Positions 2,732 through 20,462 of a DNA stretch of 26,407 nucleotides are shown here, in pieces. Source of the stretch: a virus; IMG/VR virus record IMGVR_UViG_3300043395_001341, positions 1 through 26,407 of that record; one strand, given 5' to 3'. Position numbers and translations under genes: made by a program. Position 1 is the stretch's first letter, and each line of letters begins with the position of its first letter. The notes under the pieces are model-generated. The model worked only from the letters and a program-made list of their open reading frames with translations, was not told the origin of the DNA and searched no databases.

Positions 2732-3865
2732 ATGTTAAGAGAAAATGTAATTGTTAGTGGCTCTTTAGATGTTAGCGGACAATATATAATACCTAGAGGA
2801 CCAAGAGCTAATAGACCGGCTAATCCAGAAATAGGGTCTCTTTATCTTGAAGAATCTAGCAGTGGAAGTTTTGTTGCAACATATACGGGGGTACTAAATA
2901 GAGATGATGGTTGGGAGCCTGTTGGTTCACAAAACACAGATAGAATCGGCTTTTTATATAGACAAATAATTAACTACTCATATTTGGCAGGTGGTTACAA
3001 AGACGCATCTCCGTGGAAAAATGTTCATAGAACAACCAATGCAACAGATCAAACTGTTCACTTAGGTGAGTTAATGGACTATCCCGCATCGTATACATCT
3101 GGGGCTTGTAGTAAATCAATATTATTTGTTTGGTCAACAAATACAGATGGTGCGTGGAAATCCGCAACACAAATTCATTCGACCTGGACCACAGGTGTCC
3201 ATATGGTAAACGAAACCGCGTATGCCCACCAATCCAAATGGGATTTAGCAAACGCTAGAGACGATCTAGGTACCTTGTTTCAAGAAACAGAATTTGCTTG
3301 GGTATTTGGCGGTGGTGTAGCAACCGTTGAAAAATTTAATTTAACCAATGAAGTTATGTACAGTGTATATTATCCAAATATGCAACCATACTTAACATTA
3401 AAAACATCTATTACCAGTTCATTAGGTTGTTCTGGGTTTTCTGATGAGAACTATGGTTATGGTTACGGGTCTGAAAGTGGCAATAAATTATTTTTTGCTA
3501 CAGATACATTCACAAATAACCAACAATGGGGAGCTAGCGGTCAACAAAAAGGAATTAGCTCTAAATGGGGTAAAGGATATGCGGGTAATGAAGGAACATA
3601 CAACGGAGGATATAACCTAAGAAGATGGAACGTATTTAATGAAACCAATATTGGTAACGTAGCAAAGCCGCATGGAAACTGTGGGGAAGAAAACTTTACA
3701 ATGGGGCAAGATCACCAGTATATGTTAGGAAACTATGATGGTTTACAAAATAATACCAGTTGGAAATTTATCTATGCGACTGATACAGGTACTGTAAATC
3801 CATCTGGATTAGCTCCAGGTGTTAATGGTGGAACTTCATCAGGACATTGTGGTTGGAGAAATTAA
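2732..3865 (+). CDS. Phage fibre/adhesin paralogue 1 of 3
   Basis: 377 residues. The N-terminus (NVIVSGSLDVSG) is followed by a short module seen in many phage fibre proteins: RGPRANRPANPEIGSLYLE, then YTG...DDGWEPVGSQ at about residues 27-70. The middle (about 75-280) is unlike any family I recognise. The last 100 residues are nearly the same in all three paralogues and keep Cys, His and aromatic positions: NCGEENFTMGQD, QYMLGNYDG and GTSSGHCGWR. It is the most divergent of the three in the region around 3340-3480. There is no signal peptide or membrane segment, as expected for a virion protein. The ATG follows an A/T-rich leader without a Shine-Dalgarno. A receptor-binding or tip role is inferred from position and modular build. 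Confidence 0.72.
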   Translation: MLRENVIVSGSLDVSGQYIIPRGPRANRPANPEIGSLYLEESSSGSFVATYTGVLNRDDGWEPVGSQNTDRIGFLYRQIINYSYLAGGYKDASPWKNVHRTTNATDQTVHLGELMDYPASYTSGACSKSILFVWSTNTDGAWKSATQIHSTWTTGVHMVNETAYAHQSKWDLANARDDLGTLFQETEFAWVFGGGVATVEKFNLTNEVMYSVYYPNMQPYLTLKTSITSSLGCSGFSDENYGYGYGSESGNKLFFATDTFTNNQQWGASGQQKGISSKWGKGYAGNEGTYNGGYNLRRWNVFNETNIGNVAKPHGNCGEENFTMGQDHQYMLGNYDGLQNNTSWKFIYATDTGTVNPSGLAPGVNGGTSSGHCGWRN

Positions 3866-3883
3866 AAAATGTATTTATAAAAT

Positions 3884-4990
3884 ATGCGTCACGATAATAT
3901 AGAAATTAGTGGATCGTTAAGAACTCAAGGGGTAGCAAAACCACCAGCAGGATCTAGAGCGAACAGACCAGCCAGTCCAGTGACAGGCTCATTGTATCTA
4001 GAACAAGCTAGTAGTGGTAGCTTTCTCATGGTATATACTGGTTTAGATAATGGTGACAATGGTTGGGTTAGAGTATCATCACAAGTTAATTCAAACGTTG
4101 GATTTAAATTTAGACAAATTATTGCTGTTTCATATCTCGCCGGTGGTTATAAAAATTCATCGCCATGGAAAAATGTTCACAAAACAATTAATTCAACAGA
4201 TCAGACTTCTCATATCGGTGAATTATTAGATTACCCAGCTTCATATACATCTGGCGCTTGTAGTAGATATATTTTCTTTGTTTGGTCAGTTAATACCGAT
4301 GGGGCATTTAAAGGCCCTGATACTGTAGATGGTACAAGAACATCAGCAATTAATATGGCCAATGATACCAACTATGCACATAGTGTTAGATTTAATATTA
4401 CCACAGCAAGAAGTGATTTAGGTACTATGCACAAAGAAACCGAGTTTGCATATATGTTTACCGGTGGTAGCTCAACTGTTGAAAAATTTGATTTGAGTAA
4501 TGAAACCATTATGACAGGTTTTAATTTAACAACAATCAATGGTAGCGATGGTGGTTCTGCTTTTTCAGATGAAAATTTTGGATATGGTTGGACATCTGCT
4601 GCCGGAATTAAATTTAGCTTTGCATCCGAAACATTCACATCTACTGGTATGTGGGGAGCACACTCACAACAAAAAGGCATTAGTTCCAAAGTAGGGAAGG
4701 GGTATGCCGGTAACGAAGGTTCGTATAGTGGTGGTTATAATCTAAGAAGATGGAGCAACGCTAATGATACCAATATTGGTAACGTTGCTAAACCACACCC
4801 TAACTGTGGGGAGGAAAACTTTACAATGGGACAGGACCATCAATATATGTTAGGTAACTATGACGGTGCACAGAATAATACAAGTTGGAAATTCTTCTAC
4901 GCAACAGATACTGGAACAACAAGTGTAAGTGGATTAGCCCCAGGTGTTAATGGTGGTACATCATCAGGACACTGTGGTTGGAGAGGTTAA
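3884..4990 (+). CDS. Phage fibre/adhesin paralogue 2 of 3
   Basis: 368 residues, 18 bases after paralogue 1. It has the same plan: an ISGSLRTQG opening, a GSRANRPASPVTGSLYLE module, a YTG...GDNGWVRV segment, a shared GGYK.SSPWKNVHK block, DYPASYTSGAC, and the conserved end with NCGEENFTMGQDHQY and SSGHCGWRG. It is closer to paralogue 3 than to paralogue 1; both share a GF.LTTINGSDGG stretch and FSDENFGYGWTS. This fits a recent duplication of the second and third copies. The likely role is an alternative or additional receptor-binding subunit. The exact function is unknown. Confidence 0.72.
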   Translation: MRHDNIEISGSLRTQGVAKPPAGSRANRPASPVTGSLYLEQASSGSFLMVYTGLDNGDNGWVRVSSQVNSNVGFKFRQIIAVSYLAGGYKNSSPWKNVHKTINSTDQTSHIGELLDYPASYTSGACSRYIFFVWSVNTDGAFKGPDTVDGTRTSAINMANDTNYAHSVRFNITTARSDLGTMHKETEFAYMFTGGSSTVEKFDLSNETIMTGFNLTTINGSDGGSAFSDENFGYGWTSAAGIKFSFASETFTSTGMWGAHSQQKGISSKVGKGYAGNEGSYSGGYNLRRWSNANDTNIGNVAKPHPNCGEENFTMGQDHQYMLGNYDGAQNNTSWKFFYATDTGTTSVSGLAPGVNGGTSSGHCGWRG

Positions 4991-5004
4991 AATAATTATA
5001 AAAA

Positions 5005-6117
5005 ATGATATACGAGAATTTAGAAGTTAGTGGCAGTTTAAGATCGGATAGGGTTGTTAATAGACCTCCTAGAGGGCCTAGAGCAAGCAGACCGTCTAAC
5101 CCACGTTCAGGATCATTATATCTTGAAACATCAACTAGCGGTAGTAGTTATTTGATGTTATATACGGGCGTTTCTAACATTGATGACGGATGGGAAAGAA
5201 TAGCAGCGCAAGAAACACAACCAACTACATTTAGATATAGACAAATAATTAATTACTCATATTTGGCAGGAGGCTATAAAGATGGGTCACCATGGAAAAA
5301 TGTTCATAAAACAACAAATCTAATTGATCAAACAACACATATCGGTGAATTATTAGACTACCCTGCATCTTATACATCAGGAGCGTGTAACAAAAGTATT
5401 TTTTTCGTATGGTCAGTAAACAGTGATGGTGGCATGAAATATGCTGGCGATGTATATGGCACATTTACATCAGCGATTAACATGGTTACTGATACAAGAT
5501 ATACCAACCAATCTAAATTTAATATTGCAATATCTAGAAGTGATCTAGGTACAATGCATAAAGAAACCGAGATGGCTTATTTATTTTCAGGTGGTTCCAC
5601 CACAATGGAAAAATTTAATTTATCAAATGAGAGTTTAGTTACTGGCTTCGCATTAACAACAATCAATGGTAGTGACGGCGGAGCAGCATTTTCTGATGAA
5701 AATTTTGGATACGGTTGGACATCTAGTGCAGGAATAAAATTTAATTTCTCAAACGACACAGCAAGTTCGTCCACTCAATGGGGTAATCACGCACAACAAA
5801 AAGGTATTAGCTCAAAAGTGGGGAAAGGTTATGCTGGTAATGAAGGATCATATAATGGAGGATATAACTTGAGAAGATGGAGCAACGCTAACGATACTAA
5901 TATTGGTAACGTAGCCAAACCATATGCTAACTGTGGAGAAGAGAATTTTACAATGGGGCAAGATTGGCAATATATGTTAGGGAATTATGATGGCACACAA
6001 AACAATGGCAGCTGGAAATTTTACTATGCCACTGATAGCGGAAGCAGCAGTGTAACGGGGTTAAATCCGGGTGTAAACGGGGGAACTTCTTCTGGCCATT
6101 GTGGATGGAGACAATAG
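5005..6117 (+). CDS. Phage fibre/adhesin paralogue 3 of 3
   Basis: 370 residues, 14 bases after paralogue 2. It opens with ENLEVSGSLRSDR, then RGPRASRPSNPRSGSLYLE and a YTGVSNIDDGWERI segment. The SYLAGGYKDGSPWKNVHK and DYPASYTSGACNKS blocks match paralogue 1, while the LTTINGSDGGAAFSDENF block matches paralogue 2. The terminal block NCGEENFTMGQDWQYMLGN has Trp where the others have His, and the protein ends in SSGHCGWRQ. The mosaic of similarities suggests recombination among the copies as well as duplication. It is probably a virion protein; the receptor is unknown. Confidence 0.72.
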   Translation: MIYENLEVSGSLRSDRVVNRPPRGPRASRPSNPRSGSLYLETSTSGSSYLMLYTGVSNIDDGWERIAAQETQPTTFRYRQIINYSYLAGGYKDGSPWKNVHKTTNLIDQTTHIGELLDYPASYTSGACNKSIFFVWSVNSDGGMKYAGDVYGTFTSAINMVTDTRYTNQSKFNIAISRSDLGTMHKETEMAYLFSGGSTTMEKFNLSNESLVTGFALTTINGSDGGAAFSDENFGYGWTSSAGIKFNFSNDTASSSTQWGNHAQQKGISSKVGKGYAGNEGSYNGGYNLRRWSNANDTNIGNVAKPYANCGEENFTMGQDWQYMLGNYDGTQNNGSWKFYYATDSGSSSVTGLNPGVNGGTSSGHCGWRQ

Positions 6118-6147
6118 TTGACAATTTGAAAAATTTTACTTATATTA
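6118..6147 (+). promoter_or_regulatory. Promoter-like sequence before the radical SAM operon
   Basis: TTGACA at 6118-6123 and TATATT at 6141-6146 are 17 bases apart, a textbook sigma70 layout. The same region can also be read as a Bacteroidota-like TTG, 20-base spacer, TATATTAC. The core TTTTACTTATATT recurs upstream of other genes in this window. It lies 21 bases before the ATG at 6168. In such AT-rich DNA a chance match is possible. Confidence 0.5.
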
Positions 6148-6167
6148 CAACAAAAACAATTTTATTT

Positions 6168-6929
6168 ATGGAAGGTTACAAATATGACAGATCAAAAAGC
6201 TTAAATAACCCATTTGACGAAAAGCTGATGAAAATATCAGAATCAATGTCATTCGCATTACCAAAGTATAAAGCATATAATTTCGTTGGTGGCGCTCAAA
6301 TAACCTCATACGCAAAATTAAAACAATGGTTATTAGAATTAAGAGGTAGAGAGGACGCAGTAGAACATCTAGAGTATACTGTTAGAAAAGCTGAGCTTGA
6401 GATTCAAATGGACGAAGAAAGTAAAGAATTCATTACAGATCCTAAAAGAAGGGAAATGGTTGATTTAACAATCGCTGACAAGTTGATTGATTTAAGAAAA
6501 TTCAAAAGAAATCTTAAAGATGCTTATAGAGAAAGACAAGGATTTATTGAACTTATTAAAGAATTTTTAGAAACCGATGATGCTATCTTACCAGATGGTA
6601 CAAAACTTATCGATGTATTTGGTAATCCAGAACTAGAAGAAAAATATGAGCATGAATATTGGACAGTTCGTATGGCTAAGCAAGCTATGCTGGATATGAT
6701 ATCTTACGGAAGAATAGGAACTGGTAACTTAGATTCGATTTTAATGATGGACCCAGAACAACAAAAACAAGTTCTATCTTTAGCTTCATCATACACAATA
6801 TCAATTGATAGAAATATTAATCAATTAATGTCACAAGCAACAACAAATCATTTTTCAATTGAGGAATCATTAAAAAACCAATTGAAGTTAGATAAACCAA
6901 ATAATATTCAAACAGAAAAATTATTATAA
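6168..6929 (+). CDS. Hypothetical phage protein with coiled-coil region
   Basis: 253 residues from the ATG at 6168. A longer frame begins at 6099 inside the preceding gene, but that start would place the promoter-like sequence inside the coding region, so I prefer 6168. I do not recognise a family. The protein is soluble, rich in Glu and Lys, with a probable helical or coiled-coil stretch at about residues 40-140 (charged heptad-like runs such as RKAELEIQMDEESKEF). A Gln/Asn-rich C-terminal part follows. There is no signal peptide or Cys cluster. It overlaps the next ATG by one base (TAATG), so the two are probably translationally coupled. Its place between fibre genes and a fibre-assembly-like gene suggests a virion or assembly role. 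That is inference only. Confidence 0.6.
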   Translation: MEGYKYDRSKSLNNPFDEKLMKISESMSFALPKYKAYNFVGGAQITSYAKLKQWLLELRGREDAVEHLEYTVRKAELEIQMDEESKEFITDPKRREMVDLTIADKLIDLRKFKRNLKDAYRERQGFIELIKEFLETDDAILPDGTKLIDVFGNPELEEKYEHEYWTVRMAKQAMLDMISYGRIGTGNLDSILMMDPEQQKQVLSLASSYTISIDRNINQLMSQATTNHFSIEESLKNQLKLDKPNNIQTEKLL

Positions 6930-7669
6930 TGACGCACATTATTTTTAAACTACAGGGTAACGTCCCGGGTTATATTCAGGTTATAGGTATGTACCTAAAC
7001 TACAATTATGGCAGAATTGCAGACGAATACAATGATATGAGAGTTGAATTGAATCGTTTAGGAGCAAGCATTATTCCGCCTGAAGTTGCTAGAGGATTTG
7101 TATTTGCTGACATCTATAAAGATTATATTAGCGTGAGAACAAACTCACACATTATGGATGAAATACCACAGCTTGCTGAGTCTGGTGAAACTGATGAACA
7201 AAAAGTGAAACACTTTTTAACTGACGAAGATAGAGCAGCTGGCATTGCATTCAACAAAGCTGTAATGAAAAAAGTTGTTGCAGATAGATTTTCAGAAAGA
7301 TATAAAGAGCTAATGGTTGATGCGTCAATATTAGAAAAAGATACTTGGGAAGAACAAAAGAGAGAAGCGTTTGGTTGGACAGCAGATAGCGATTATCAAA
7401 CACCAATCATTGATGCACTATCTACAGGTAGAGGAATTGATAAAGCTACATTTGTTCAAAAAATTATTAACAATGTAACCTCATATAATACTAAGTTAGC
7501 AAACTTATTATTAGAACAGCAATTGTTAGAAGAAAGAATTAAAGCTTGTCAAACTATTGCTGATTGCCATAGATTGAAACACGAGAAATTTGGTGTGGCC
7601 ATGAGTAAGCAACAAAAAGAAGATGAAAATGTGCCATTTACTCCTTTGACATTGAAAATGGACTTTTAA
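6929..7669 (+). CDS. Putative tail-fibre assembly protein (DUF4376-like C-terminal half)
   Basis: 246 residues. Residues 140-213 run from WEEQKREAFGW through TPIIDAL..GRGIDKATFVQKI to LLLEQQLLEERI and a final TIADC. This resembles the DUF4376 domain of phage tail-fibre assembly proteins in order and spacing: target-peptide-like start, Gly-Ile-x-Lys turn, long amphipathic helix with an LEERI-type end. The N-terminal 90 residues are unfamiliar. It starts on TAATG with the gene before and ends on TAATG with the radical SAM gene, so all three are coupled. A role in folding or attaching the fibres encoded just upstream is likely from position, but the domain match was made by eye. It could also be a structural protein that merely shares this domain. 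Confidence 0.5.
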   Translation: MTHIIFKLQGNVPGYIQVIGMYLNYNYGRIADEYNDMRVELNRLGASIIPPEVARGFVFADIYKDYISVRTNSHIMDEIPQLAESGETDEQKVKHFLTDEDRAAGIAFNKAVMKKVVADRFSERYKELMVDASILEKDTWEEQKREAFGWTADSDYQTPIIDALSTGRGIDKATFVQKIINNVTSYNTKLANLLLEQQLLEERIKACQTIADCHRLKHEKFGVAMSKQQKEDENVPFTPLTLKMDF

Positions 7670-8670
7670 TGAATTTAGCAATTAACGGAACGTGCGCTAA
7701 GGGATGTTCATTTTGCTTTACAAAAGAAGACGCAAGATTAAAACACACTTTAGGTAACATGACAATAGAAATGGTTGATAAAGTTATCAACCATTATCAT
7801 TTAGATTCGCCTCATGAAGAAGTAACTATACTTGGCGGTGAACCAACACAGCACCCAAACTTTATTGAGATCCTTGATTATATTTTCAGCAAGAATATGA
7901 AGATAAATCTTGTTAGTAATTTTCTGTTTGGCAAAGCAACCAGAGATTATCTAATTGATAACATAAAGAATATCAGATGGGTATTTCCAAATGCAGCTGA
8001 GCTAAATGAAAAAAACAGGATGGTCGTTTTTAAAAAGAACTATCTAGAATTTTATAAAGCTTATGCTAACACATGGGGGTTTGATACAAACCCAAGACTT
8101 TATTTGGCGATAACCATGTCAAAAGATTGGAAGGATAGAAACTTTTATGATTACATAAAATGGTTATACCATGAATTAGATGGTAAAGTAAATGCAATTA
8201 GAGTTGGTTTAGATCTTACTGGTACCTATTTGATTAATAATAAAGAAATGGGCGCTGAAATAACTAAGATTCTTAAATTTGGTTTATATAATAAGGTTAA
8301 GATTACATCTGATTGTCAGGTGCCCCCTTGTTTATGGGAAGGTAAAACAAAGAAAGCGGTGTTGGAGAATTCTTTAAATTTTGCAACATTTAAAATACCT
8401 GAATATGATACCATATGTGGATTTATGCCACTAGATGTTTTTCCTGACGGAAGTTCAATTCATTGTTACCCATTACAAGATAAAGTAAAGATTGACAATG
8501 TTTTGGAAATTTCAGGAAAAAACGGTATATTAGGACTAAGGGACAAGTTCGATGAACTATATACCATAAATCATAAAAATTATACAATACCACAAGGTTG
8601 TATGGATTGCGTATTCTATAAGAACGAATGCAATGGAATATGTGGTGGTTGTTTAGAAGGATCAAAGTAA
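7669..8670 (+). CDS. Radical SAM protein with SPASM-like C-terminal Cys cluster
   Basis: 333 residues. CAKGCSFC (Cys9, Cys13, Cys16) is the CX3CX2C motif that binds the catalytic 4Fe-4S cluster. LGGEPTQHP (GGEP at 56-59) is the SAM-binding motif. The C-terminus has Cys311, 314, 321, 325 and 328 in a CX2CX6CX3CX2C array, typical of an auxiliary cluster (SPASM/twitch type). Further Cys residues occur around 220-270 (a CQVPPCLW stretch and the Cys pair flanking FMPLDVFPDGSSIH). The first motif begins only nine residues in, so there is no extra N-terminal domain. Relatives with this plan modify peptides, proteins or small molecules. The substrate cannot be read from sequence. It is coupled by TAATG on both sides to the assembly-like gene and the U32-like gene, so these probably act together. 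Confidence 0.85.
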   Translation: MNLAINGTCAKGCSFCFTKEDARLKHTLGNMTIEMVDKVINHYHLDSPHEEVTILGGEPTQHPNFIEILDYIFSKNMKINLVSNFLFGKATRDYLIDNIKNIRWVFPNAAELNEKNRMVVFKKNYLEFYKAYANTWGFDTNPRLYLAITMSKDWKDRNFYDYIKWLYHELDGKVNAIRVGLDLTGTYLINNKEMGAEITKILKFGLYNKVKITSDCQVPPCLWEGKTKKAVLENSLNFATFKIPEYDTICGFMPLDVFPDGSSIHCYPLQDKVKIDNVLEISGKNGILGLRDKFDELYTINHKNYTIPQGCMDCVFYKNECNGICGGCLEGSK

Positions 8671-9707
8671 TGAAAAAAATATTTTCAATCCCTTTTAATC
8701 CAATGCTTTCGGAAGAAGTATTTGTGAACAAATTTTATCCTTTCTTAGAAAGAAATAAAGAGTGGATATATGATGTTTATTTTACTTGTAGAATACCACC
8801 ATTTACACAAGATGCAATGGGATCAACATTCTCTGATGAATTTAGAGATGTTGTTTTTGATAATGCAATGATTGTGCAAAAAGCTTTAGGGATTACTGTG
8901 AGTGCAACATTCAATAATACAAATGTTTCACCTAGATTTGATAACTATAAATTGTTTGTTGATAATCTTAAACCATTATATGAAAAAGGTTTAAGGTGCA
9001 TGACAGTACCTCATGGACATTGGGTTGCAATGGGACTAAAGAAACACTTCCCTGAAATGGAAATTAAAAATACCATTTTAAGAAAGGTTGCAACCGGTCA
9101 AGATTTTTGGTACAATGCTGATCAAGGATTTGATTACATTAATCTTGATCGAATTCTAATGAGGGACGTTGAGGAATTAAAAAACATTAAACGAGCACAA
9201 TTAAAATACTACGAAGAAAAAGGTAGATATGTAAAACTATCATTGCTTGTTAATGAAGGTTGTTTAGGTAGGTGCCCAGTGATGGATGAGCATTATTCTT
9301 ATAATAACCTAAGAACAAACAACGAGTTACCATATTTTCATCACGAGATATCTAAGGTAACCTGCGAACACAAGTGGGAAAAAGATATCAATGCATTCTT
9401 TTTCAAAACCGGAACAATCCCACCATTCAAAGAAGAGTTCGATGAATTCCTGGAATATATTGATGTCTTTAAAATGCATGGAAGAGACAGCTTTAATAGA
9501 TTAGATGAAACTATTGAAATTGTTGACTCATATGTTCAAGGTAAAGAAATATTATCTAAGACATCAGAAATATATTTGGATGGCATACCACATGAAGAGT
9601 TAAAAGGTTGGAGAAATAAAATTAAGAAATGTAAGTTCCAATGTTGGGATTGTAATTACTGTGACATTGTTGCTGGTCATAAGAAAAAAGCATATGGACT
9701 TAATTAA
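8670..9707 (+). CDS. U32-like (COG0826-type) Fe-S protein
   Basis: 345 residues from the ATG at 8670, which overlaps the radical SAM stop as TAATG. A longer frame from 8628 would start inside that gene and is not favoured. FDYINLDRILMRDVEELKNI (about 154-173) followed by VKLSLLVNEGCLGRCP (about 188-203) resembles the end of the TIM barrel and the Cys region of U32-family proteins such as UbiU/UbiV. In that family these Cys residues bind a 4Fe-4S cluster. Visible Cys are 198, 202 and 232, plus a second group at 321, 325, 328 and 331 near the C-terminus. Some U32 proteins hydroxylate RNA or quinones using prephenate; others were described as proteases. Which applies here is unknown. Being coupled to a radical SAM enzyme suggests a joint modification pathway. 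The family call is by eye. Confidence 0.5.
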   Translation: MKKIFSIPFNPMLSEEVFVNKFYPFLERNKEWIYDVYFTCRIPPFTQDAMGSTFSDEFRDVVFDNAMIVQKALGITVSATFNNTNVSPRFDNYKLFVDNLKPLYEKGLRCMTVPHGHWVAMGLKKHFPEMEIKNTILRKVATGQDFWYNADQGFDYINLDRILMRDVEELKNIKRAQLKYYEEKGRYVKLSLLVNEGCLGRCPVMDEHYSYNNLRTNNELPYFHHEISKVTCEHKWEKDINAFFFKTGTIPPFKEEFDEFLEYIDVFKMHGRDSFNRLDETIEIVDSYVQGKEILSKTSEIYLDGIPHEELKGWRNKIKKCKFQCWDCNYCDIVAGHKKKAYGLN

Positions 9708-10359
9708 ACATATCGACGAATCTATTGAGTGGGGTAGACTTGAAGTATCTAAACTAACACAGGACATTTTAGATATACATGGAATTACAAGTAACAAAGT
9801 CAAATCTTTTTTAAACAATATTTGTGATATCGAAGGCGCAACATATCTTGAAGTTGGCGTCTTTCGTGGCGCAACATTTTGTTCTGCTATATATGGTAAC
9901 AACATTTATTCCATTGCGGTCGATAATTTCATGTCCCCAAATTTAACCCCGAGAGGCGTTAGTCAAAAGATTGGTAACTATTATAAACATAATATTGACG
10001 TTATTCCGCAAGAAGAATTTTTAAATAACGTTAAAAAATTCGGTAACGTAGATAAGATATCAGTATATAAAACTGATTATCAAACATTTGACTTTAGCTC
10101 CTTGCCAAATGTTGATATTATATTCTATGATGGTGAAACAAAATTCCACGATCAATACACAGCACTAACAAACATGTTACCAATTATTTCTGATGAGACG
10201 ATTTTAATTATGGATGATTGGAACTGGGATAGTGGAGCCTTTGAACAATTCTTAGATAAAAACAAATTAAATCTTTTTCATTCTAAACAAATATTCACAT
10301 CAGGTGAAGATCCGGACGATTTTTGGAACGGATTAGGTGTATTTTTAATCGGTAAATAA
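9694..10359 (+). CDS. Class I SAM-dependent methyltransferase
   Basis: 221 residues from the ATG at 9694, overlapping the previous gene by 14 bases. An in-frame ATG at 9661 would add 11 residues and lies deeper inside the neighbour. Motif I is YLEVGVFRGATF (residues 51-62), the SAM-binding glycine loop. VDN at 76-78 is in the place of the acidic end of strand 2. IIFYDGETKFHDQY (142-155) resembles the metal- or substrate-binding DGDHSY motif of the Methyltransf_24 group. LIMDDWNW (171-178) is the usual strand after it. This subgroup often methylates sugars or small molecules. It is the last gene of the coupled chain from 6168, after the radical SAM and U32-like genes. Confidence 0.75.
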   Translation: MDLIKHIDESIEWGRLEVSKLTQDILDIHGITSNKVKSFLNNICDIEGATYLEVGVFRGATFCSAIYGNNIYSIAVDNFMSPNLTPRGVSQKIGNYYKHNIDVIPQEEFLNNVKKFGNVDKISVYKTDYQTFDFSSLPNVDIIFYDGETKFHDQYTALTNMLPIISDETILIMDDWNWDSGAFEQFLDKNKLNLFHSKQIFTSGEDPDDFWNGLGVFLIGK

Positions 10360-10427: not shown

Positions 10428-11309
10428 ATGAAGAAAACAATGAAAATGCTATCGCTAATGTTAGCAGCTTTGTTTGTTACTACATTGTCATTCGGTCAAT
10501 ATAGTAACAGCGCGATCAAACAGGGATCTGAGCAAACCCTTAAATCTCAGGACACAACTAAAAATGAGTTACAAGAAATTGTTGTAACCGCTAAAAAAGT
10601 TCCATTGATGACCAAAGTAGGGCCATACGGTCAACCGCTTTGGACTACCATCAGAATGTTTCCATCCACAAGAGTCTATGTTATGAACCCTCCAGGTACA
10701 GCGATGTATGAGAAATGGTTCGATATTAGACAAAGAAGAAACGGACCAGCACAAATCAGAATGAGAGATGAATTTACATTTGGGCTAGGTAAACGACTTC
10801 AATTGGATTTATACTCTCATACAGTTTATGACGGCTTAGATGGCGCTAAAACCTTTAAATGGAGAGGGTTCTCTTGGGAACTTAGATACGCTTTAGCAGA
10901 TTGGGGTAAAATCTGGGGTAACCCAACACTTTATTATGAGATGAAAATGTTAGATGGTCGTTGGGGTATTGAGCCTAAATTATTATTAGGCGATAGAATT
11001 GGTGAAAGGGGTGTATGGGGATTCAATGCAATCTATGAGGGTAATCTTGCTAGCACTAAAGAAGAAAGAGAACCAGAGTACGCATATACAGCATCCTATG
11101 CTAACATCATTAACAATGATTTATCCGTTGGTGTCTCACACATGTTTAGATATAACGACTATGAAGGGGGTTCACAAGAATGGTATCTAGGACCACTAGT
11201 TCAATATCGTTTTAGTAACAAAGGTTATCTAAACATTGAGCACATGCCAGGCTTAAATCAAGACGCAAAACAATCAAGAACCTTAATTATATTCGGATGG
11301 AGATTTTAA
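10428..11309 (+). CDS. Secreted outer-membrane beta-barrel protein with TonB-box-like motif
   Basis: 293 residues. Residues 1-23 are a signal peptide: KK near the start, a hydrophobic core (MLAALFVTTL), and likely cleavage after SFG with Gln next, a common Bacteroidota pattern. Residues 48-56 (LQEIVVTAK) match the TonB-box/plug-start consensus of TonB-dependent receptors (EIVVTA). The plug domain and long barrel of such receptors are absent; the whole protein is under half the usual size. Residues 100-293 alternate polar and hydrophobic with many aromatics (LYYEMKML, GVSHMFRYND) and end in FGWRF. A terminal Phe is the classic signal for barrel insertion. It overlaps the downstream DUF401 gene by 13 bases, suggesting an outer/inner membrane pair. 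A secreted OM protein is unusual cargo for a phage. The function is unknown. Confidence 0.7.
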   Translation: MKKTMKMLSLMLAALFVTTLSFGQYSNSAIKQGSEQTLKSQDTTKNELQEIVVTAKKVPLMTKVGPYGQPLWTTIRMFPSTRVYVMNPPGTAMYEKWFDIRQRRNGPAQIRMRDEFTFGLGKRLQLDLYSHTVYDGLDGAKTFKWRGFSWELRYALADWGKIWGNPTLYYEMKMLDGRWGIEPKLLLGDRIGERGVWGFNAIYEGNLASTKEEREPEYAYTASYANIINNDLSVGVSHMFRYNDYEGGSQEWYLGPLVQYRFSNKGYLNIEHMPGLNQDAKQSRTLIIFGWRF

Positions 11310-12301
11310 TCAAAGGACAAGAATTCCTTGTCTACTTAATATTCATTATGTTCATCACAGGTATCCTCAAAGAAAGAGGATACCTTATGGACATCTTCAG
11401 ACTACTTGAACAAAAAGTTAAATCCAAGAAGATGGTTGTTTTCTTGGTATCATTATTTGGTGGCGTTCTACCAATTCCTGGTAGAGTAGCGCTATCTGCA
11501 TCAATGCTCAATAGCATTGCCCCAGTTGATAATAAGAAGCGCAAGAAGTTTGGTATCATTGATTATCTTGCTACACATCATTATTATCTGTGGTCACCTT
11601 TAGAAAAGACTGTAATTATTCCTATGGCTGTATTAGGATTAACATACTCAAAGTTTATGTTATATGTGTGGCCACTGTTATTAATTACCGGTCTTTATAT
11701 CACATATTATATTTTATCATTAGAAGACGATGAGATCGATATTGATGTTAAAGATGAACCAATTAATTGGAAGAATATCACCCATGTTGTTTTACCATTC
11801 TTAGGAACAATATTAATTAGTTGTTTTACGGAATATTACTTTGGTGCATTTACATTATTCACAATTTATTTGATTGGTTATTCTAAGTTATGGAATAAAC
11901 TATTAGCCTATATAAATTGGGATTTAGTATTAATAGTTGCCACAGTAATCATATTAGGGAACGTAGCCAACAGCTACTATTCTGATATTGAAAACTATAT
12001 AAAACAATATAAAAATCCAGAGAGTATCTTGATTGTTTCCATGCTTGGCTTTATGGCTTCTTTCTTACTTGGATCATCAGCAAAATATGCAAGTATTGTT
12101 AGCTTATTAACAACAGTGTTTGGCATGGAATATTTTGTATTATTCTTTACATTAGAGTATTCGGCTTATCTAATATCGCCATCTCATAAATGTTTACCAA
12201 TAGGTCAAAAGTACTTTCATACTGGATTTATGACGTATTTGAAAGCATTGATTGTTTGGATATCAATTATGATAACTTTTGCAATTTTAACCATCCTATA
12301 A
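11297..12301 (+). CDS. DUF401-family inner-membrane protein
   Basis: 334 residues with about eight to ten hydrophobic segments (for example 10-24, 46-58, 107-140 and the final 20), so an integral inner-membrane protein. FGGVLPIPGRVALSA (54-68) and YLISPSHKCLPIGQKYF (291-307) match the two signature regions I know from DUF401, a family of presumed transporters related to the ion-transporter superfamily. Hydrophilic DDEIDIDVKDEP lies in a loop near the middle. The ATG lies inside the end of the OM barrel gene (13-base overlap), so expression is coupled. No substrate is known for the family. The pairing with a TonB-box-bearing OM protein suggests uptake or envelope modification. Confidence 0.65.
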   Translation: MEILIKGQEFLVYLIFIMFITGILKERGYLMDIFRLLEQKVKSKKMVVFLVSLFGGVLPIPGRVALSASMLNSIAPVDNKKRKKFGIIDYLATHHYYLWSPLEKTVIIPMAVLGLTYSKFMLYVWPLLLITGLYITYYILSLEDDEIDIDVKDEPINWKNITHVVLPFLGTILISCFTEYYFGAFTLFTIYLIGYSKLWNKLLAYINWDLVLIVATVIILGNVANSYYSDIENYIKQYKNPESILIVSMLGFMASFLLGSSAKYASIVSLLTTVFGMEYFVLFFTLEYSAYLISPSHKCLPIGQKYFHTGFMTYLKALIVWISIMITFAILTIL

Positions 12302-12827: not shown

Positions 12828-12852
12828 AAGGAGCTTTTAAAGCTCCTTTTTT
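12828..12852. terminator. Bidirectional rho-independent terminator
   Basis: AAGGAGCT (12828-12835) pairs with AGCTCCTT (12841-12848) around a TTTAA loop. T6 follows at 12847-12852 on the plus strand, and an A6 tract at 12821-12826 gives the U-tract for the minus strand. The minus-strand gene at 12837 ends within it: its final Lys, Glu and Leu codons are the stem and its stop is in the loop. Confidence 0.85.
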
Positions 12853-13955
12853 ATTTGTATTAACATATTACCTAATTGGTATTCACCCGGTTCATAGTAT
12901 GGTATAGATAACCTTAAACGATATAACGTTTGCAAATCATCATCTGTGAATTCTTCCAATTCTGTTACCGTTACATCTACAGTATCTGTTAATGTAAACT
13001 TACTTCTAAGATCGTACCTAGTTCTTTTTTGCTCATTACTAATATAATCTTCTGGAACCTCGCCAAGATCTATCTTATCAAAGAATGGTTCTACTTGCAT
13101 GAGTCTTTTCTTATTTCTGGTTATCAATCCCATTGAAAAGGTTTTATAGATAAAATTCTTTTCTTCCCAATAACGCAACTCATTAAAAACAATTATAGGT
13201 ATGCCCCATTTTCTAACAAAGTTTCTACCAGATGAGATTTCATGTAACGCTCTATCTTTCTTAAAGTCTTCGCTAAATCTTGATGTCTGTGAAACAAAGT
13301 GATATACAATAGCAGATTCACAAGTTTTAAGACCATAACCTTTTAACTTTGCTCTTATAAGAAAATCATCGTCTTCACAAAAACATGGGACAAAACTAAA
13401 ACCATCAAAGAAACCAACATCTTCGAACATTTTTTTATATCCACTCATAAAGAATACGGCGCCGTCATATAATTCATCATTACTTTTATGTTCCTCTACA
13501 TATTGGTTAAAATTAAAATAATCAAAATTTTCGAATGATGAACCTAAATCTAATAATACCTTACCAGGCCTTCTATGACCCTTAAAAATCGGCGGCTCTA
13601 TGGTTGTATATGATAATACCATATTTGGCTCTAAGAGCCTCTCTATGGCCTCTAAAAACCCTTCTCCGATGATCATATCATTATGAATTAATACCAGCTT
13701 ATCCGTATCGACTAATTTTATCCCAGAATTATATGTTTCTGAAAATGCTAATCTATCATCATCATGAAAGATAGTTAGGTTTGGGTCTTTCTCAGCCATA
13801 CTTACAAGCCATTCCTTGGTACCATCTGTCGATCCGCCACTGCTTATTACAAATGGTACTGTTGGATATATTTCTCTTATCCGTGAATAGCAATTCTCGG
13901 TTAGATCTAATTTATTTAAAACTGCTAAAACAAATGTAACATTAGTTGTGGACAT
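12837..13955 (-). CDS. Family 2-like glycosyltransferase (GT-A) with C-terminal extension
   Basis: 372 residues. FVLAVLNKLDLTENCY opens the nucleotide-sugar fold. SSGGSTDGT (38-46) is the usual donor-binding turn. HND (91-93) stands in the DxD position that holds metal and UDP. CEDDDFLIRAKLKGYG (193-208) is the ED acceptor/base motif of GT2 enzymes. After about residue 300 there is an extra region of beta character (DTVDVTVTELEEF) not needed for the fold. It is the last gene of the minus-strand operon and overlaps the upstream GT by 14 bases. The sugar and acceptor are unknown. There is no membrane helix, so it is a soluble cytoplasmic transferase. Confidence 0.85.
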   Translation of the reverse strand: MSTTNVTFVLAVLNKLDLTENCYSRIREIYPTVPFVISSGGSTDGTKEWLVSMAEKDPNLTIFHDDDRLAFSETYNSGIKLVDTDKLVLIHNDMIIGEGFLEAIERLLEPNMVLSYTTIEPPIFKGHRRPGKVLLDLGSSFENFDYFNFNQYVEEHKSNDELYDGAVFFMSGYKKMFEDVGFFDGFSFVPCFCEDDDFLIRAKLKGYGLKTCESAIVYHFVSQTSRFSEDFKKDRALHEISSGRNFVRKWGIPIIVFNELRYWEEKNFIYKTFSMGLITRNKKRLMQVEPFFDKIDLGEVPEDYISNEQKRTRYDLRSKFTLTDTVDVTVTELEEFTDDDLQTLYRLRLSIPYYEPGEYQLGNMLIQIKKEL

Positions 13956-14523
13956 ATAATATTTTCTGAATGTGAATGATACCCCCCTTAAATTTATCGA
14001 TGTACTCCTCTACAAATAAACCATCAGCATCAACCTTGGTGACATCTAATCTCATTTGCTTTGCGAATTTTGTTTTGGTCATAAAGTTACCGATATCAAT
14101 ACCATGTAACTGTGGTCTCGACATTAAACCAATATAATCATTATTAATCCAATTATGTACCAAGTTGCAGTGCACAAAGTTAGCATCCTTTCTATACTTT
14201 ACAGAATTTAAGAACTCTTCTACAAAAACTGGAACATAATAGTTGTCATCTCCAGACATTACCACCCACTCTTCCTCTGCTCTTTCTAACCCATAATTTC
14301 TAGCAGTATGCCCCCAATCTTTATGTGGGCCATTTAATTCTGAAAACTTAAATCTTTCATCATTTTTAAAATAATCTTTGACTTCTTGATATCCATCATA
14401 TAGTGCATCCGCAACAACATGAACTTTCCACAAATCAACTGATTGTGCTTTTATTGAAGACAACATAACCATTAACTTTTCGGGTCTGTTGTAAGTTGGG
14501 ATAATAAATTCTATTTTTTTCAT
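13942..14523 (-). CDS. Family 2-like glycosyltransferase, short
   Basis: 193 residues. EFIIPTYNRPEKL (5-17) is the classic GT2 opening. KDWGHTARNYGLERA (68-82) is the helix that follows the donor loop, and SGDDNYYVP (90-98) carries the DxD motif. It contains little beyond the nucleotide-binding half of the fold, compared with 250-350 residues in many GT2 proteins. It may need the overlapping neighbour at 12837-13955 for acceptor binding. Four bases separate it from the epimerase gene upstream. Cytoplasmic; the substrate is unknown. Confidence 0.82.
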   Translation of the reverse strand: MKKIEFIIPTYNRPEKLMVMLSSIKAQSVDLWKVHVVADALYDGYQEVKDYFKNDERFKFSELNGPHKDWGHTARNYGLERAEEEWVVMSGDDNYYVPVFVEEFLNSVKYRKDANFVHCNLVHNWINNDYIGLMSRPQLHGIDIGNFMTKTKFAKQMRLDVTKVDADGLFVEEYIDKFKGGIIHIQKILYVHN

Positions 14524-14527
14524 ATGC

Positions 14528-15523
14528 TTATTTTTTCCAAAAACTATAAATTCCTTTATCTAATTCGTATGTCTCCCAAACGAATCTATCTCTGTTTGGT
14601 TGCTTTTGTGCCCACTCCCACATTGTCTTTAAGCCATCATATAAAGATGTTTTATCCTCATATCCTAATAACTTAACTGACTTAGCCCAGGTAGGTACAG
14701 CAGTTTTAACTTCATGTCTCTGTTCTTTATAAACAGTATCACCGCCAGCTATAACATCTCGTAAAATTTTATTTGCCTCATTAATTGTGTAATGTTTTGT
14801 TCCACCCAAATTAATAATTTCTTTTGAACATTCTGGAAGTTGTGATGCTTTCCATAGTCCCTCTAAACAATCATCAATATAACTGAATGCTCTTTTTTGT
14901 TCACCGTCCCCAAATATTGTCATTGGTTGACCATTCATATGTTGATACATCCAGATACCTAATACGTTTCTGTATTTATCCCATATGTTTTGTTTAATAC
15001 CATATACGTTGTGTGGTCTAATTATACACCAATCCAAGCCATGTTGTTCTCCCGCAACCTTAATATCCATTTCACATGCGTATTTTGCAATACCATATGG
15101 ATCAATTGGTTGGGGTATCTGAGATTCATCAAACACATTACCATTTCCGTGTCCATAAACAGCCATTGTTGATGTGAATACTAATCTTTTTACATCATGT
15201 TTAATACATTGATTCACTATTCTTGCTGTTGCTACCAAATTATTCTCATAATTGTATTGTCTAATAAATGGTGACAACCCCTCAGCCGCGTAAGCTGCAA
15301 AGTGAAAAACATAATCAAATTTATGTTCATTAAAACACTCTTCTAAATTTCCTGTAACAAGATTTAACACCCTTAATTCACTAACTTTAGAATTTACATT
15401 CTCATAGTACCCACCGCTTAAATCATCTATACCTACAATTTCAACATCCTTGTGGTTTTCAATGATATAATCTGTTAATCTTGAACCTAATAAACCTGCT
15501 ATACCTGTAATTAAAACTTTCAT
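14528..15523 (-). CDS. NAD-dependent epimerase/dehydratase (extended SDR, GalE-like)
   Basis: 331 residues. VLITGIAGLLGSRL (3-16) is the Rossmann GxxGxxG dinucleotide loop. VFHFAAYAA (72-80) is the usual strand 4 motif. TSTMAVYG (117-124) holds the catalytic Ser/Thr, and YGIAKYACE (143-151) is the YxxxK pair. WCIIRPHNVYG follows as in UDP-sugar epimerases. Length and motif order match UDP-glucose/GlcNAc 4-epimerases, but sister families (reductases, dehydratases) look similar. It probably supplies a nucleotide sugar to the transferases around it in the same operon. Confidence 0.88.
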   Translation of the reverse strand: MKVLITGIAGLLGSRLTDYIIENHKDVEIVGIDDLSGGYYENVNSKVSELRVLNLVTGNLEECFNEHKFDYVFHFAAYAAEGLSPFIRQYNYENNLVATARIVNQCIKHDVKRLVFTSTMAVYGHGNGNVFDESQIPQPIDPYGIAKYACEMDIKVAGEQHGLDWCIIRPHNVYGIKQNIWDKYRNVLGIWMYQHMNGQPMTIFGDGEQKRAFSYIDDCLEGLWKASQLPECSKEIINLGGTKHYTINEANKILRDVIAGGDTVYKEQRHEVKTAVPTWAKSVKLLGYEDKTSLYDGLKTMWEWAQKQPNRDRFVWETYELDKGIYSFWKK

Positions 15524-15526
15524 ACT

Positions 15527-16078
15527 TTAAAATTTATATATTATTAGAACGTCATCGTCCCTATGCTTTATATGTCTATTATCGATAATTTCTATGTTAT
15601 TGTGAAGCCCAGAAAATATTTTTTTAACATTATCTATTGAAACAACATCCTCAATAATGTATATCCCTCCAGGTTTCATTTTTGATTTAAAAATATCAAA
15701 TGTTTTTATTTGATCGGCGAGCCTATGACTACCATCATCAATGATAACATCAAAAAATTTTTCATCGATTTTTTCTACGATATCGTCCTCCGTTGCATCA
15801 CCGATAATAATATTATGCCCCGGCTCATTAATTAAATGGGTTAAGAATTTACTTGTAATATCAATACCAATTACTTTAGAATCAATAAAATACTCTTCCC
15901 ACATTCTTAACGATTCCCCCTCACACAAACCAATCTCAAGAAAGACTGAATTTTTTCTATATGGAGATAATAATCTCTCGTATTCTTCAATATATGTATG
16001 GGCAGTACCCTTATCACCATGTCCTTCTGGTGATTGGTATCGTTCATATATCTCATTTAATGTTTTCATAATAATCAT
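15527..16078 (-). CDS. Class I SAM methyltransferase, probably sugar-modifying
   Basis: 183 residues; an alternative ATG at 16069 would remove three. VFLEIGLCEGESLRMW (45-60) is motif I, IGIDI (70-74) ends strand 2, and IIDDGSHRLADQ (112-123) is the metal-binding DDGSH motif. MKPGGIYIIEDV (134-145) is the late strand. DDGSH with an early HGDKGTAH region resembles the macrocin/mycinamicin and cephalosporin-hydroxylase-like sugar O-methyltransferase group. It sits between the epimerase and a glycosyltransferase and overlaps the latter by 26 bases (17 from the alternative start). It likely methylates a sugar in the glycan made by this operon. It is not closely alike to the methyltransferase at 9694-10359. 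Confidence 0.78.
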   Translation of the reverse strand: MIIMKTLNEIYERYQSPEGHGDKGTAHTYIEEYERLLSPYRKNSVFLEIGLCEGESLRMWEEYFIDSKVIGIDITSKFLTHLINEPGHNIIIGDATEDDIVEKIDEKFFDVIIDDGSHRLADQIKTFDIFKSKMKPGGIYIIEDVVSIDNVKKIFSGLHNNIEIIDNRHIKHRDDDVLIIYKF

Positions 16079-16676
16079 TTTGTTTTTCTTGTCTAGTTAT
16101 TGTTTTGTGGTGAGATAATGAGTACTCTTCTTCCATTGGAAGTAATGAATAAAATTTAGCCCCAACAATTTTTTCATGGACTTTGCCTCCCCATTTTAAA
16201 TTTGATTTGTAAATTCTTCCCTGGTAGTCTGGATAGTTAACTCTACCATTCGCATCCACATTCCATCTCCATTTTTTAACATGTTCATCAGTTAAACCCT
16301 TCACAGTATTGATTCTAGGAACAAAGAATAAATCAATTTCTAAATTCATTTCAATGATCTCGTGAATATTTTTAACCATATACTCGCTGATTAATTCATC
16401 GGCATCTAATTGAAAGATGTAATCTCCGGTACAGTATTCGTTTAATTTGTTTTTCCATTCCGCAAAGTCGCTATTAAAATCAAACGACCTCCAGGTTTGA
16501 ACATTAGGTAGTTTATTGAATTCTAACAAAAAGTCAAGGACCTTTTCATCTCCATTTTTATTGTCATATAAAATAACAATCTCATCATTTATTCTTTTGT
16601 TCTTAATTAAGAATGGAACCAATCGCTTGATTTCTTCATACTCGTTACATACTGTGATTGCGAAACTAATTTTCAT
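16053..16676 (-). CDS. Family 2-like glycosyltransferase
   Basis: 207 residues. ISFAITVCNEYEEIKRL (3-19) is the GT-A opening. QLDADELISEYM (89-100) carries the DxD motif in the LDADE form known from LPS heptosyl/glucosyl transferases of the WaaE/KdtX type. RVNYPDYQGRIY, then KWGGKVHEKI, corresponds to the acceptor-side segment those enzymes share (W.G.VHE). It overlaps the next upstream gene by ATGA and the methyltransferase downstream by 26 bases. Soluble and cytoplasmic; the acceptor is unknown. Confidence 0.83.
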   Translation of the reverse strand: MKISFAITVCNEYEEIKRLVPFLIKNKRINDEIVILYDNKNGDEKVLDFLLEFNKLPNVQTWRSFDFNSDFAEWKNKLNEYCTGDYIFQLDADELISEYMVKNIHEIIEMNLEIDLFFVPRINTVKGLTDEHVKKWRWNVDANGRVNYPDYQGRIYKSNLKWGGKVHEKIVGAKFYSLLPMEEEYSLSHHKTITRQEKQNDYYENIK

Positions 16677-16957
16677 ATTTTTTCTCTTACAAATAGTTTA
16701 AATTCTTTACCTGTTTTAGAGTCTGTAAAGACTATGTTTGTGTTTGTTTGATTAGTAAGTGTGAATGTTATCTTAGCGTTATCTCCTTCATAAGATGGTT
16801 TCGTTGCTGCGAACACATGTGGTTCATTATCATCAAACTGAAAGCACCATTCACAATCTTTAAATGTCTGATTTGCGTTTAGTGTTAGACTAGGTTCCAT
16901 CATAATTTCGGTTGGACGTTGGATGACCAGTTCTTTTATTTTTTTACTCTTCGCCAT
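16673..16957 (-). CDS. Small hypothetical beta-rich protein
   Basis: 94 residues. A Lys-rich first 10 residues is followed by alternating strands (ELVIQRPTEI, AKITFTLTNQTN, KEFKLFVREKI) that would fit a small Ig-like sandwich. Two Cys (CEWC) lie in the middle. No known family is apparent and there is no signal peptide. It sits inside the glycan operon, overlapping the GT at 16053-16676 by four bases (ATGA) and one base from the GT upstream. Its place suggests an accessory role in the same pathway or a small virion decoration protein. Both are guesses. Confidence 0.6.
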   Translation of the reverse strand: MAKSKKIKELVIQRPTEIMMEPSLTLNANQTFKDCEWCFQFDDNEPHVFAATKPSYEGDNAKITFTLTNQTNTNIVFTDSKTGKEFKLFVREKI

Positions 16958-16958
16958 T

Positions 16959-20105: not shown

Positions 20106-20462
20106 TTATGCAGGATTAAATTTTCTCCCCAAATAAAGATTTGCACTATCCCCCTCTTTAAAATCTCTGCAGGTACCGGATTGGAATTCAAACACATGAT
20201 CAGCGGGGCCAACAAATCTTTGACATTCTTCTTCGGAACATGGCTGACAGTCTCTAAAAATTTTGGAGATTTTACCATTCAACACAAACACAATATCTAA
20301 AGGAATCAAACAATCCTTCATCCAAAATGTATGGTACCCTTTCTTAAGTTTAAAACCCATACAACCATCCAGACTGTCTCTACCAGACATACCTCTTTGG
20401 ATTTCCTCTGGGGTTGTTTGCATCTCTACCGGAAACTCCTGGTTTGAAATTCTTAGATTCAT
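20106..20462 (-). CDS. DUF192-family protein
   Basis: 118 residues, matching the full DUF192 domain. FPVEMQTTPEEIQRGMSGRD (10-29) is the first motif. GCMGFKLKKGYHTFWMKDCL (33-52) contains the FWMK signature. IPLDIVFVLNGKISKIF (53-69) follows, then the Cys region (DCQPCSEEEC) and the closing VFEFQSGTCRDFKEGDSA. Most bacterial members are secreted or lipid-anchored; this one has no signal peptide, so it is cytoplasmic or virion-borne. Six Cys is a high count for its size. The function of the family is not settled. It is divergently arranged from the gene at 20515. Confidence 0.85.
   Translation of the reverse strand: MNLRISNQEFPVEMQTTPEEIQRGMSGRDSLDGCMGFKLKKGYHTFWMKDCLIPLDIVFVLNGKISKIFRDCQPCSEEECQRFVGPADHVFEFQSGTCRDFKEGDSANLYLGRKFNPA

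Follow-up and report, generated by a model that had tools for sequence, protein, structure and literature searches.

A radical SAM protein, a U32-like Fe-S barrel protein and a methyltransferase beside phage tail-fibre genes: a possible fibre-modification cassette

The window analysed here is the whole 26,407-nucleotide stretch of IMG/VR record IMGVR_UViG_3300043395_001341, an aquatic virus of bacteria in which enzyme genes adjoin host-recognition fibre genes. On its plus strand, three fibre paralogues, the proposed substrate class, lie at 2732..3865, 3884..4990 and 5005..6117, and all of them match phrog_1417 in the PHROG search with E-values of about 1e-43 to 1e-47 (6e-47, 3e-43 and 4e-43, respectively). 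They are followed by a phrog_1409 protein, the counterpart of T4-GC 353 (6099..6929, E 4e-48; its gene start is uncertain, either TTG 6099 or a later codon), and by a phrog_1604 protein, the counterpart of T4-GC 352 (6929..7669, E 6e-29). Three enzyme genes come next on the same strand: a radical SAM protein with SPASM-like C-terminal cysteines (7669..8670), a predicted U32-like Fe-S TIM-barrel protein (8670..9707) and a class I SAM methyltransferase (9694..10359). The phrog_1604, radical SAM, Fe-S barrel and methyltransferase genes form a four-gene run joined by TAATG junctions at 6929, 7669 and 8670 or by a 14-base overlap, in which the methyltransferase ATG is at 9694 and the U32-like TAA at 9705-9707; all these junctions, listed in an earlier note on this DNA, are found in the sequence. 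The same note called the gene at 6929-7669 fibre-assembly-like; it is the phrog_1604 gene, for which an assembly role is plausible, with a faint match to phrog_2624, a tail assembly chaperone (E 0.016), pointing in that direction. A glycosyltransferase cluster occupies 12837-19573 on the minus strand, with epimerase-like and second methyltransferase genes also nearby.

The radical SAM protein has 333 amino acids and belongs to the Radical_SAM superfamily (Pfam 40.6 bits against a cut-off of 29.5, E 4e-10). Its C9-X3-C13-X2-C16 motif, GGEP at 56-59 and C311/C314/C321/C325/C328 are invariant across 15 relatives, so the motifs first noticed at this locus are genuine; since C216, C221, C250 and C266 are likewise invariant, the C-terminal cysteine array is larger than the five residues reported. 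We compared it with the SPASM pattern, that is, CX9-15GX4C, then CX2CX5CX3C, then a further C. The first motif is matched exactly by C250-X10-G261-X4-C266, and the second reads CX2CX6CX3CX2C instead of the canonical CX2CX5CX3C plus a further C; both SPASM-like motifs arise in 2 of 20,000 shuffles. The Pfam SPASM family matched none of the 15 radical SAM members, and the designation SPASM-like is one that we assign from the cysteine pattern. Foldseek, run on a model whose C-terminal part is weak, placed the RiPP maturases TigE, SuiB and SkfB and the sugar radical SAM enzyme DesII among the best structural matches. A plasmid relative adjoins PqqD, YcaO and TfuA genes.

The middle protein, of 345 amino acids, is predicted to adopt a U32 TIM-barrel fold. 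Its AlphaFold2 model (pLDDT 85) has as its best match among 350,542 PDB chains the U32 protein Mk0906 (5d88, E 9.4e-7), and the resemblance to U32 proteins proposed earlier thus survives structure prediction at the level of the fold; the next matches are MTHFR barrels at about 1e-5 (1.2e-5), so the margin for the U32 fold is modest. No search in Pfam, NCBIfam or PHROG returned a U32 name for this protein, which has no Pfam family at all, and sequence searches of the PDB gave nothing useful. PF01136 (Peptidase U32) matched none of 20 U32-like members at E<=5, and hhalign of their profile against 25 genuine U32 proteins gave a non-significant probability of 0.4%. The short alignment that hhalign did return covers the corresponding region of the barrel. 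U32 proteins have been described as carrying a motif of four conserved cysteines (PMC6747719); neither CX6CX15CX3/4C nor the UbiV variant is present here, as only C198, C202 and C232 are invariant in the barrel. Several relatives have T or S in place of C40, and the Glu position conserved in U32 is missing. The separate C-terminal four-cysteine cluster of the earlier description is present, with invariant C321 and C325 and nearly invariant C328/C331 (one alignment row is incomplete there); in the barrel the spacing is altered and one canonical cysteine is not invariant. The likeness to U32 lies in the predicted fold alone, and membership by sequence is not supported.

The third enzyme passes the Methyltransf_24 profile (31.8 bits against a cut-off of 26.3, E 2.8e-7). 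It also extends a relationship shared with its neighbour: the 519 positions of phrog_1458 are matched in order, 1-294 by the U32-like protein (E 5e-92) and 303-519 by the methyltransferase (E 3e-33), in the same fibre synteny. In marine T4-like cyanophages the two parts constitute the single protein phrog_1458, and the radical SAM gene is absent. In every fibre-linked phage examined, the U32-like and methyltransferase parts occur together, most often as a fusion. As most of these carriers lack the radical SAM protein, the trio is the radical SAM-bearing variant of a two-domain core that is older than the trio itself.

Our survey of IMG/VR covered 66 distinct radical SAM genes, with neighbours counted wherever the contig was long enough. 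The U32-like gene is next after the radical SAM gene in 64/64 loci, and the methyltransferase gene follows it in 58/58; upstream, the fibre and phrog_1409 are found in 64/64 loci and phrog_1604 in 65/65. The dN/dS values of 0.014-0.083 indicate purifying selection. Together, the conserved order and the low dN/dS argue that the trio is not a chance neighbourhood. Homologues found mostly apart would have spoken against the idea of a coupled trio; the radical SAM gene was never found apart from the other two, but the U32-like and methyltransferase genes occur mostly in phages without it. Among 50,697 phage records there are 123 matches for each of four parts (the fibre C-terminal domain, phrog_1409, the U32-like part and the methyltransferase part), and the breakdown by host and organism is identical for all four; these are related, non-independent cyanophages compared by counts and listed rows and not record by record. 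For phrog_1604, 115 of the 50,697 records match. In S-RIM14 about 6 kb, with petE and a 6-phosphogluconate dehydrogenase gene among the intervening genes, separates phrog_1409 from the fused U32-like/methyltransferase gene downstream of it, and both are kept. In P-HM2 and S-CAM4 the cassette is present as a unit at another genome position, and the module has been moved and duplicated as a unit. As an anchor of synteny, denV fails in several phages, where it is located elsewhere. The late fibre regions of these phages gather unrelated genes too.

Hydroxylases of another kind recur at this place. In one radical SAM sublineage (L120, L045, L125 and L126) a 2OG-Fe(II) oxygenase gene lies between phrog_1604 and the radical SAM gene, and such oxygenases adjoin the same fibres in other relatives. 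In S-SM1, with flanks as in Syn19, the slot is occupied by other genes, two 2OG oxygenases and a leprecan protein; phages without the U32-like protein carry 2OG oxygenases next to their fibres. Two settings of the U32-like protein have neither fibres nor methyltransferase: Syntrophaceae, where sulphate-activation genes adjoin it, and a 224-kb phage. The family is thus not restricted to fibre loci. The two Syntrophaceae (L128 and L129) are the only carriers among 155 searched genomes of that class, and the only apparent bacterial or archaeal homologues that look chromosomal. Two other candidates, L130 and L131, have the fibre synteny of the phages and most probably represent phage contigs that binning assigned to MAGs.

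We consider, at roughly even odds, that the trio makes up the enzyme-coding end of a tail-fibre cassette, located where a T4-like phage encodes host recognition. The enzymes are inherited with those fibres in every case and for this reason probably modify the fibre protein chemically. We give a probability of about 0.5 to a fibre-modification cassette whose chemistry is probably O2-independent hydroxylation plus O-methylation, extended by a radical step; substrate, reactions and reaction order are what we infer. The phrog_1417 fibre proteins and the phrog_1409 and phrog_1604 proteins are made from the same gene run as the enzymes. The U32-like [4Fe-4S] barrel would hydroxylate a fibre residue without O2, the methyltransferase would O-methylate the hydroxylated residue, and the SPASM-type radical SAM protein would add a further modification in this lineage only, leaving a chemically altered receptor-binding tip. 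Known U32 proteins have been implicated in O2-independent hydroxylation (PMC6747719, PMC6599085). A comparison of fibre conservation between phages with and without the radical SAM gene gave many differing positions and no single residue standing out as the substrate. Of the targets first proposed for a dedicated modification (virion protein, RNA or glycan), the fibre is favoured by its lock-step inheritance with the enzymes and by the hydroxylases recurring beside fibres, RNA and small-molecule substrates being less probable. A broader and more doubtful extension is that virus-encoded, O2-independent protein hydroxylation and O-methylation, extended in one lineage by a SPASM-type radical enzyme, matures the receptor-binding fibre; it would be a post-translational chemistry devoted to host recognition and interchangeable with O2-dependent 2OG hydroxylases at this locus.

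The first alternative, which we regard as unlikely, is RNA modification: the U32-like protein would hydroxylate a base of host or phage tRNA or rRNA, the methyltransferase would methylate it, and proximity to the fibres would reflect late co-expression only. The best-studied U32 proteins, RlhA and TrhP, do act on RNA, the U32 and methyltransferase pairing exists there (PMC6599085), and standalone U32-like members lie outside fibre loci. However, the window has no tRNA genes, the E162/C170/C177 spacing of TrhP is unmatched, inheritance is in lock-step with one fibre type even where the genes are separated, and fibre loci without the U32-like/methyltransferase unit carry protein-hydroxylase-like 2OG enzymes instead. 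Similarly improbable is that the trio, with the glycosyltransferase cluster, builds or modifies a sugar or lipid on the fibre or host surface. DesII among the structural matches and the nearby glycosyltransferase, epimerase-like and second methyltransferase genes on the minus strand would fit this, as would the glycosyltransferases and radical SAM cassettes that one report places in pelagimyophage host-recognition clusters (PMC7029224); nevertheless, other genes and a change of strand separate the trio from the glycosyltransferase block, and no glycosyltransferase is annotated around the fused core in those cyanophage regions that were examined, where most genes are unnamed. That auxiliary genes accumulated independently and by chance in a late region that is hypervariable is very unlikely: the same source describes the host-recognition clusters of marine T4-like phages as hypervariable, yet the identical 123-record distributions, the U32-like/methyltransferase fusion across a whole clade and the movement and duplication of the module as a unit speak against it, and the order kept in the 66 loci with its dN/dS values already contradicts it, unless the diversity of these loci is much lower than it seems. 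Finally, a viperin-like (pVip) role in defence or counter-defence, in phage-phage or phage-host conflict, suggested by PADLOC pVip (E 2e-10, residues 2-86) and NCBIfam viperin (E 1.3e-7) matches, is highly improbable, and we rejected the identity, as the matches span only the common radical SAM core (31.1 bits against a cut-off of 180 for NCBIfam, residues 2-84) and the protein has a SPASM-like C-terminus and a fixed fibre context.

Marine T4-like phages are abundant, and 2OG oxygenases, radical SAM proteins and methyltransferases fill their host-recognition regions. The fibre type and enzyme unit are inherited together, and the cultured isolates Syn19, S-RIM2, P-HM2 and P-SSM4 carry them. If the fibres are modified, receptor-binding tips bear chemistry invisible in sequence alone, and a possible protein substrate would be added to the U32 fold, so far associated with RNA and quinone hydroxylation.

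Radical SAM cassettes in phage host-recognition clusters are already known, and what is apparently new is the U32-like/methyltransferase unit, inherited in lock-step with a single type of fibre; a literature search for a phage radical SAM/U32 system found none, most subscription journals being outside its coverage. The pelagimyophage cassettes (PMC7029224) are phage-borne and within the fibre region, as here, and Campylobacter phages CP220/CPt10 carry 11-12 radical SAM genes (PMC2853527); the available parts of these two reports describe neither a U32-like/methyltransferase partner nor lock-step inheritance with one fibre type. The phage protein resembles the SPASM peptide maturases SuiB, SkfB and TigE in its CX3CX2C core and in C-X10-G-X4-C followed by CX2CX6CX3C; it has no identified precursor peptide gene, no SPASM Pfam match and a spacing one residue off the canonical CX2CX5CX3C. 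The O2-independent hydroxylases UbiU/UbiV (PMC6747719) have the U32 fold and cluster-binding cysteines in the corresponding barrel region, but their four-cysteine motifs are CX6CX16CX38C or CXnCX12CX3C, in contrast to CX3CX29C, with three invariant cysteines and a separate C-terminal four-cysteine motif, in the phage protein. In B. subtilis, U32 proteins and the methyltransferase TrmR make mo5U (PMC6599085); TrhP and TrmR likewise pair a U32-fold protein with a SAM methyltransferase in a hydroxylate-then-O-methylate logic, but the phage protein has no detectable sequence kinship to U32, the cysteine spacing differs, the B. subtilis pair has no fibre link and no radical SAM protein, and an RNA substrate is known only there. 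The cyanophage phrog_1458 protein (T4-GC 354; Syn19_046 and PHM2_101, annotated as hypothetical) differs from the trio in being fused and in having no radical SAM partner; its two domains and their order are those found here, and it too follows the fibre, phrog_1604 and phrog_1409 genes.

The radical SAM protein (7669-8670), the U32-like Fe-S barrel protein (8670-9707) and the methyltransferase (9694-10359), all encoded on the plus strand, constitute a real unit. Our study retrieved at least 66 distinct full-length radical SAM genes from IMG/VR among the best 80 loci listed in each search, and remoter relatives may stand in other contexts. Wherever the contig was long enough, the U32-like gene came next after the radical SAM gene (64 of 64 loci), the methyltransferase followed it (58 of 58), phrog_1604 preceded the radical SAM gene (65 of 65), and the fibre and phrog_1409 lay upstream (64 of 64); this survey bears out the coupling that the earlier note had proposed. 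The dN/dS values of the three enzymes were 0.014-0.083 in 12 pairwise comparisons, several with saturated dS, and no radical SAM relative was found among the 50,697 phage records searched.

In the window, a virus record of 26,407 bases, a PHROG search placed three phrog_1417 fibre paralogues (2732-6117), phrog_1409 (from TTG 6099 or a later codon to 6929) and phrog_1604 (6929-7669) 5' of the trio. The TAATG junctions previously described at 6929, 7669 and 8670 are all present, as is the 14-base overlap of the U32-like and methyltransferase genes (9694-9707). The radical SAM motifs also stand as described (C9/C13/C16, GGEP at 56-59 and C311/C314/C321/C325/C328) and are invariant in 15 relatives, as are C216, C221, C250 and C266. 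The C-terminal cysteine pattern is SPASM-like and rare by chance, arising in 2 of 20,000 shuffles, but no SPASM Pfam match was found; the structure model is of low confidence (pLDDT 63, with the C-terminus scoring poorly), its best matches being TigE, DesII and SuiB. The methyltransferase is a Methyltransf_24 member by Pfam search.

The relationship of the second protein to U32, claimed earlier, stands for its predicted fold and fails for its sequence. Its model (pLDDT 85, pTM 0.85) has as best PDB match a U32 protein, 5d88 (E 9.4e-7), followed by methylenetetrahydrofolate reductases (E 1e-5), whereas PF01136 was absent by profile search of 20 members and hhalign of the family against U32 gave a probability of 0.4%. 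Four cysteines are conserved in most U32 families, with which UbiU and UbiV ligate [4Fe-4S] (PMC6747719), and E162, C170 and C177 are essential in TrhP (PMC6599085); in contrast, an alignment of relatives shows only three invariant barrel cysteines here (C198, C202 and C232; CX3CX29C), without a Glu eight residues ahead of the first. For these reasons, we consider that the protein resembles U32 by predicted fold and do not assign it to that family. Within its C-terminal cluster (C321/C325/C328/C331), C321 and C325 are invariant, and C328 and C331 nearly so.

This U32-like/methyltransferase core predates the trio. PHROG 1458 is a single profile of 519 positions: the U32-like protein matches its first 294 and the methyltransferase its positions 303-519. 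In cyanophages both are one gene, such as Syn19_046. The Syn19-type order is fibre, phrog_1604, phrog_1409 and fused gene; in the window, by comparison, phrog_1409 comes before phrog_1604 and a radical SAM gene is inserted. A tree built from 30 U32-like domains puts the split genes accompanied by radical SAM in one clade (support 99/99) and the fused genes in a second (100/100); three standalone members group with the split clade, but on long branches. The simplest account is a single radical SAM gain together with the split arrangement, which may have arisen by fission or have preceded the fused form. Standalone U32-like genes lacking fibres and methyltransferase occur in Syntrophaceae and on a 224-kb viral contig (L175:1483-7907), which shows that the fold is not fibre-specific and that the U32-like/methyltransferase pair is the specific part. 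On the viral contig, the gene is surrounded by dCTP deaminase-like and DNA ligase-like genes and by genes for GGDEF-EAL and Band 7 proteins. In Syntrophaceae, the neighbours include a second short Cys protein and sulphate-activation genes: in the regions L128:7604-9517 and L129:917-2817 the U32-like gene is followed by a 258-aa protein with 'NAGCAYNCPARICYR', after which come GNAT, TauE, a PAPS-reductase-type protein and a fused GTPase/APS kinase; L129 begins with an additional partial U32-like copy. This locus is possibly a chromosomal system of its own.

The core is also inherited jointly with one fibre type. Syn19 queries with the fibre C-terminal domain, phrog_1409, the U32-like domain and the methyltransferase each matched 123 phage records, and the breakdown by organism and by host is the same for all four. 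These sets were compared by counts and listed rows, and because the phages share ancestry the counts do not amount to independent trials. Syn19 phrog_1604 matched 115 records, a shortfall that probably reflects search sensitivity, since the P-HM2 unit contains this gene, annotated T4-GC 352. In S-RIM14, the fused gene lies apart from fibre-phrog_1604-phrog_1409, with petE, a 6-phosphogluconate dehydrogenase and further genes filling the roughly 6 kb in between, yet none of the set is lost; in P-HM2 and S-CAM4 the cassette lies elsewhere in the genome, as a unit. One contig (L246:3-7478) carries a second fibre-phrog_1409-U32-like set behind the first, an apparent module duplication, and the contigs of an archaeal and a Dehalococcoidia MAG that carry the phage fibre cassette (L130 and L131) are probably misbinned phage.

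Downstream of the trio, a signal-peptide outer-membrane-like protein (weak Phenol_MetA_deg match) and a DUF401 permease-like protein (10428-12301) are conserved 3' of it in relatives; judging by signal peptides that end in FGQ and IAQ, the host may belong to the Bacteroidota. On the minus strand, opposite the fibre cassette, the block at 12837-19573 combines glycosyltransferase-like genes with an NAD-dependent epimerase-like gene and, at 15527-16078, a second SAM methyltransferase, as is typical of host-recognition clusters. A DUF192-like small protein (20106-20462, minus strand) was recognized by eye, and a PcfJ-like protein (24303-26204, plus strand) by Pfam (E 5e-10).

Hydroxylase-type enzymes recur beside these fibres, as 2OG oxygenases occur in or near the fibre loci of several relatives. 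S-SM1 shares the Syn19 flanks (fibre T4-GC 346/347 at one end, denV T4-GC 100 at the opposite end), and where Syn19 has T4-GC 351-354 it carries two 2OG-Fe(II) oxygenases and a leprecan protein along with other genes. Such oxygenases lie close to fibre genes in Syn30, S-RIM8 and S-SZBM1, adjoin the same fibre type in L239, L241, L131 and P-RSM1 (PF13759/PF13640), and stand between phrog_1604 and the radical SAM gene in a four-member sublineage (L120/L045/L125/L126), two of the four scoring just under the Pfam cut-off. The argument loses some of its weight because cyanophages in general often carry 2OG genes (PMC10436341). In S-SZBM1 (L301, 7641-13233), a tryptophan halogenase, two 2OG-Fe(II) oxygenases and a cupin protein adjoin two tail fibre assembly genes.

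The most parsimonious interpretation is that the trio acts on the co-inherited fibre protein, which the U32-like protein would hydroxylate and the methyltransferase would then O-methylate, the SPASM-type enzyme adding a further radical step in the lineage that bears it. Our literature search for the U32-like/methyltransferase unit found no description of it. Published work describes radical SAM cassettes in host-recognition clusters of pelagimyophages (PMC7029224) and many radical SAM genes in Campylobacter phages (PMC2853527), and S-SM1 virion proteomics described ten structural proteins with similar distributions across nine cyanophages (PMC3037559). RNA stands as a serious rival substrate, since the system that comes nearest in function, TrhP plus TrmR, acts on tRNA (PMC6599085).
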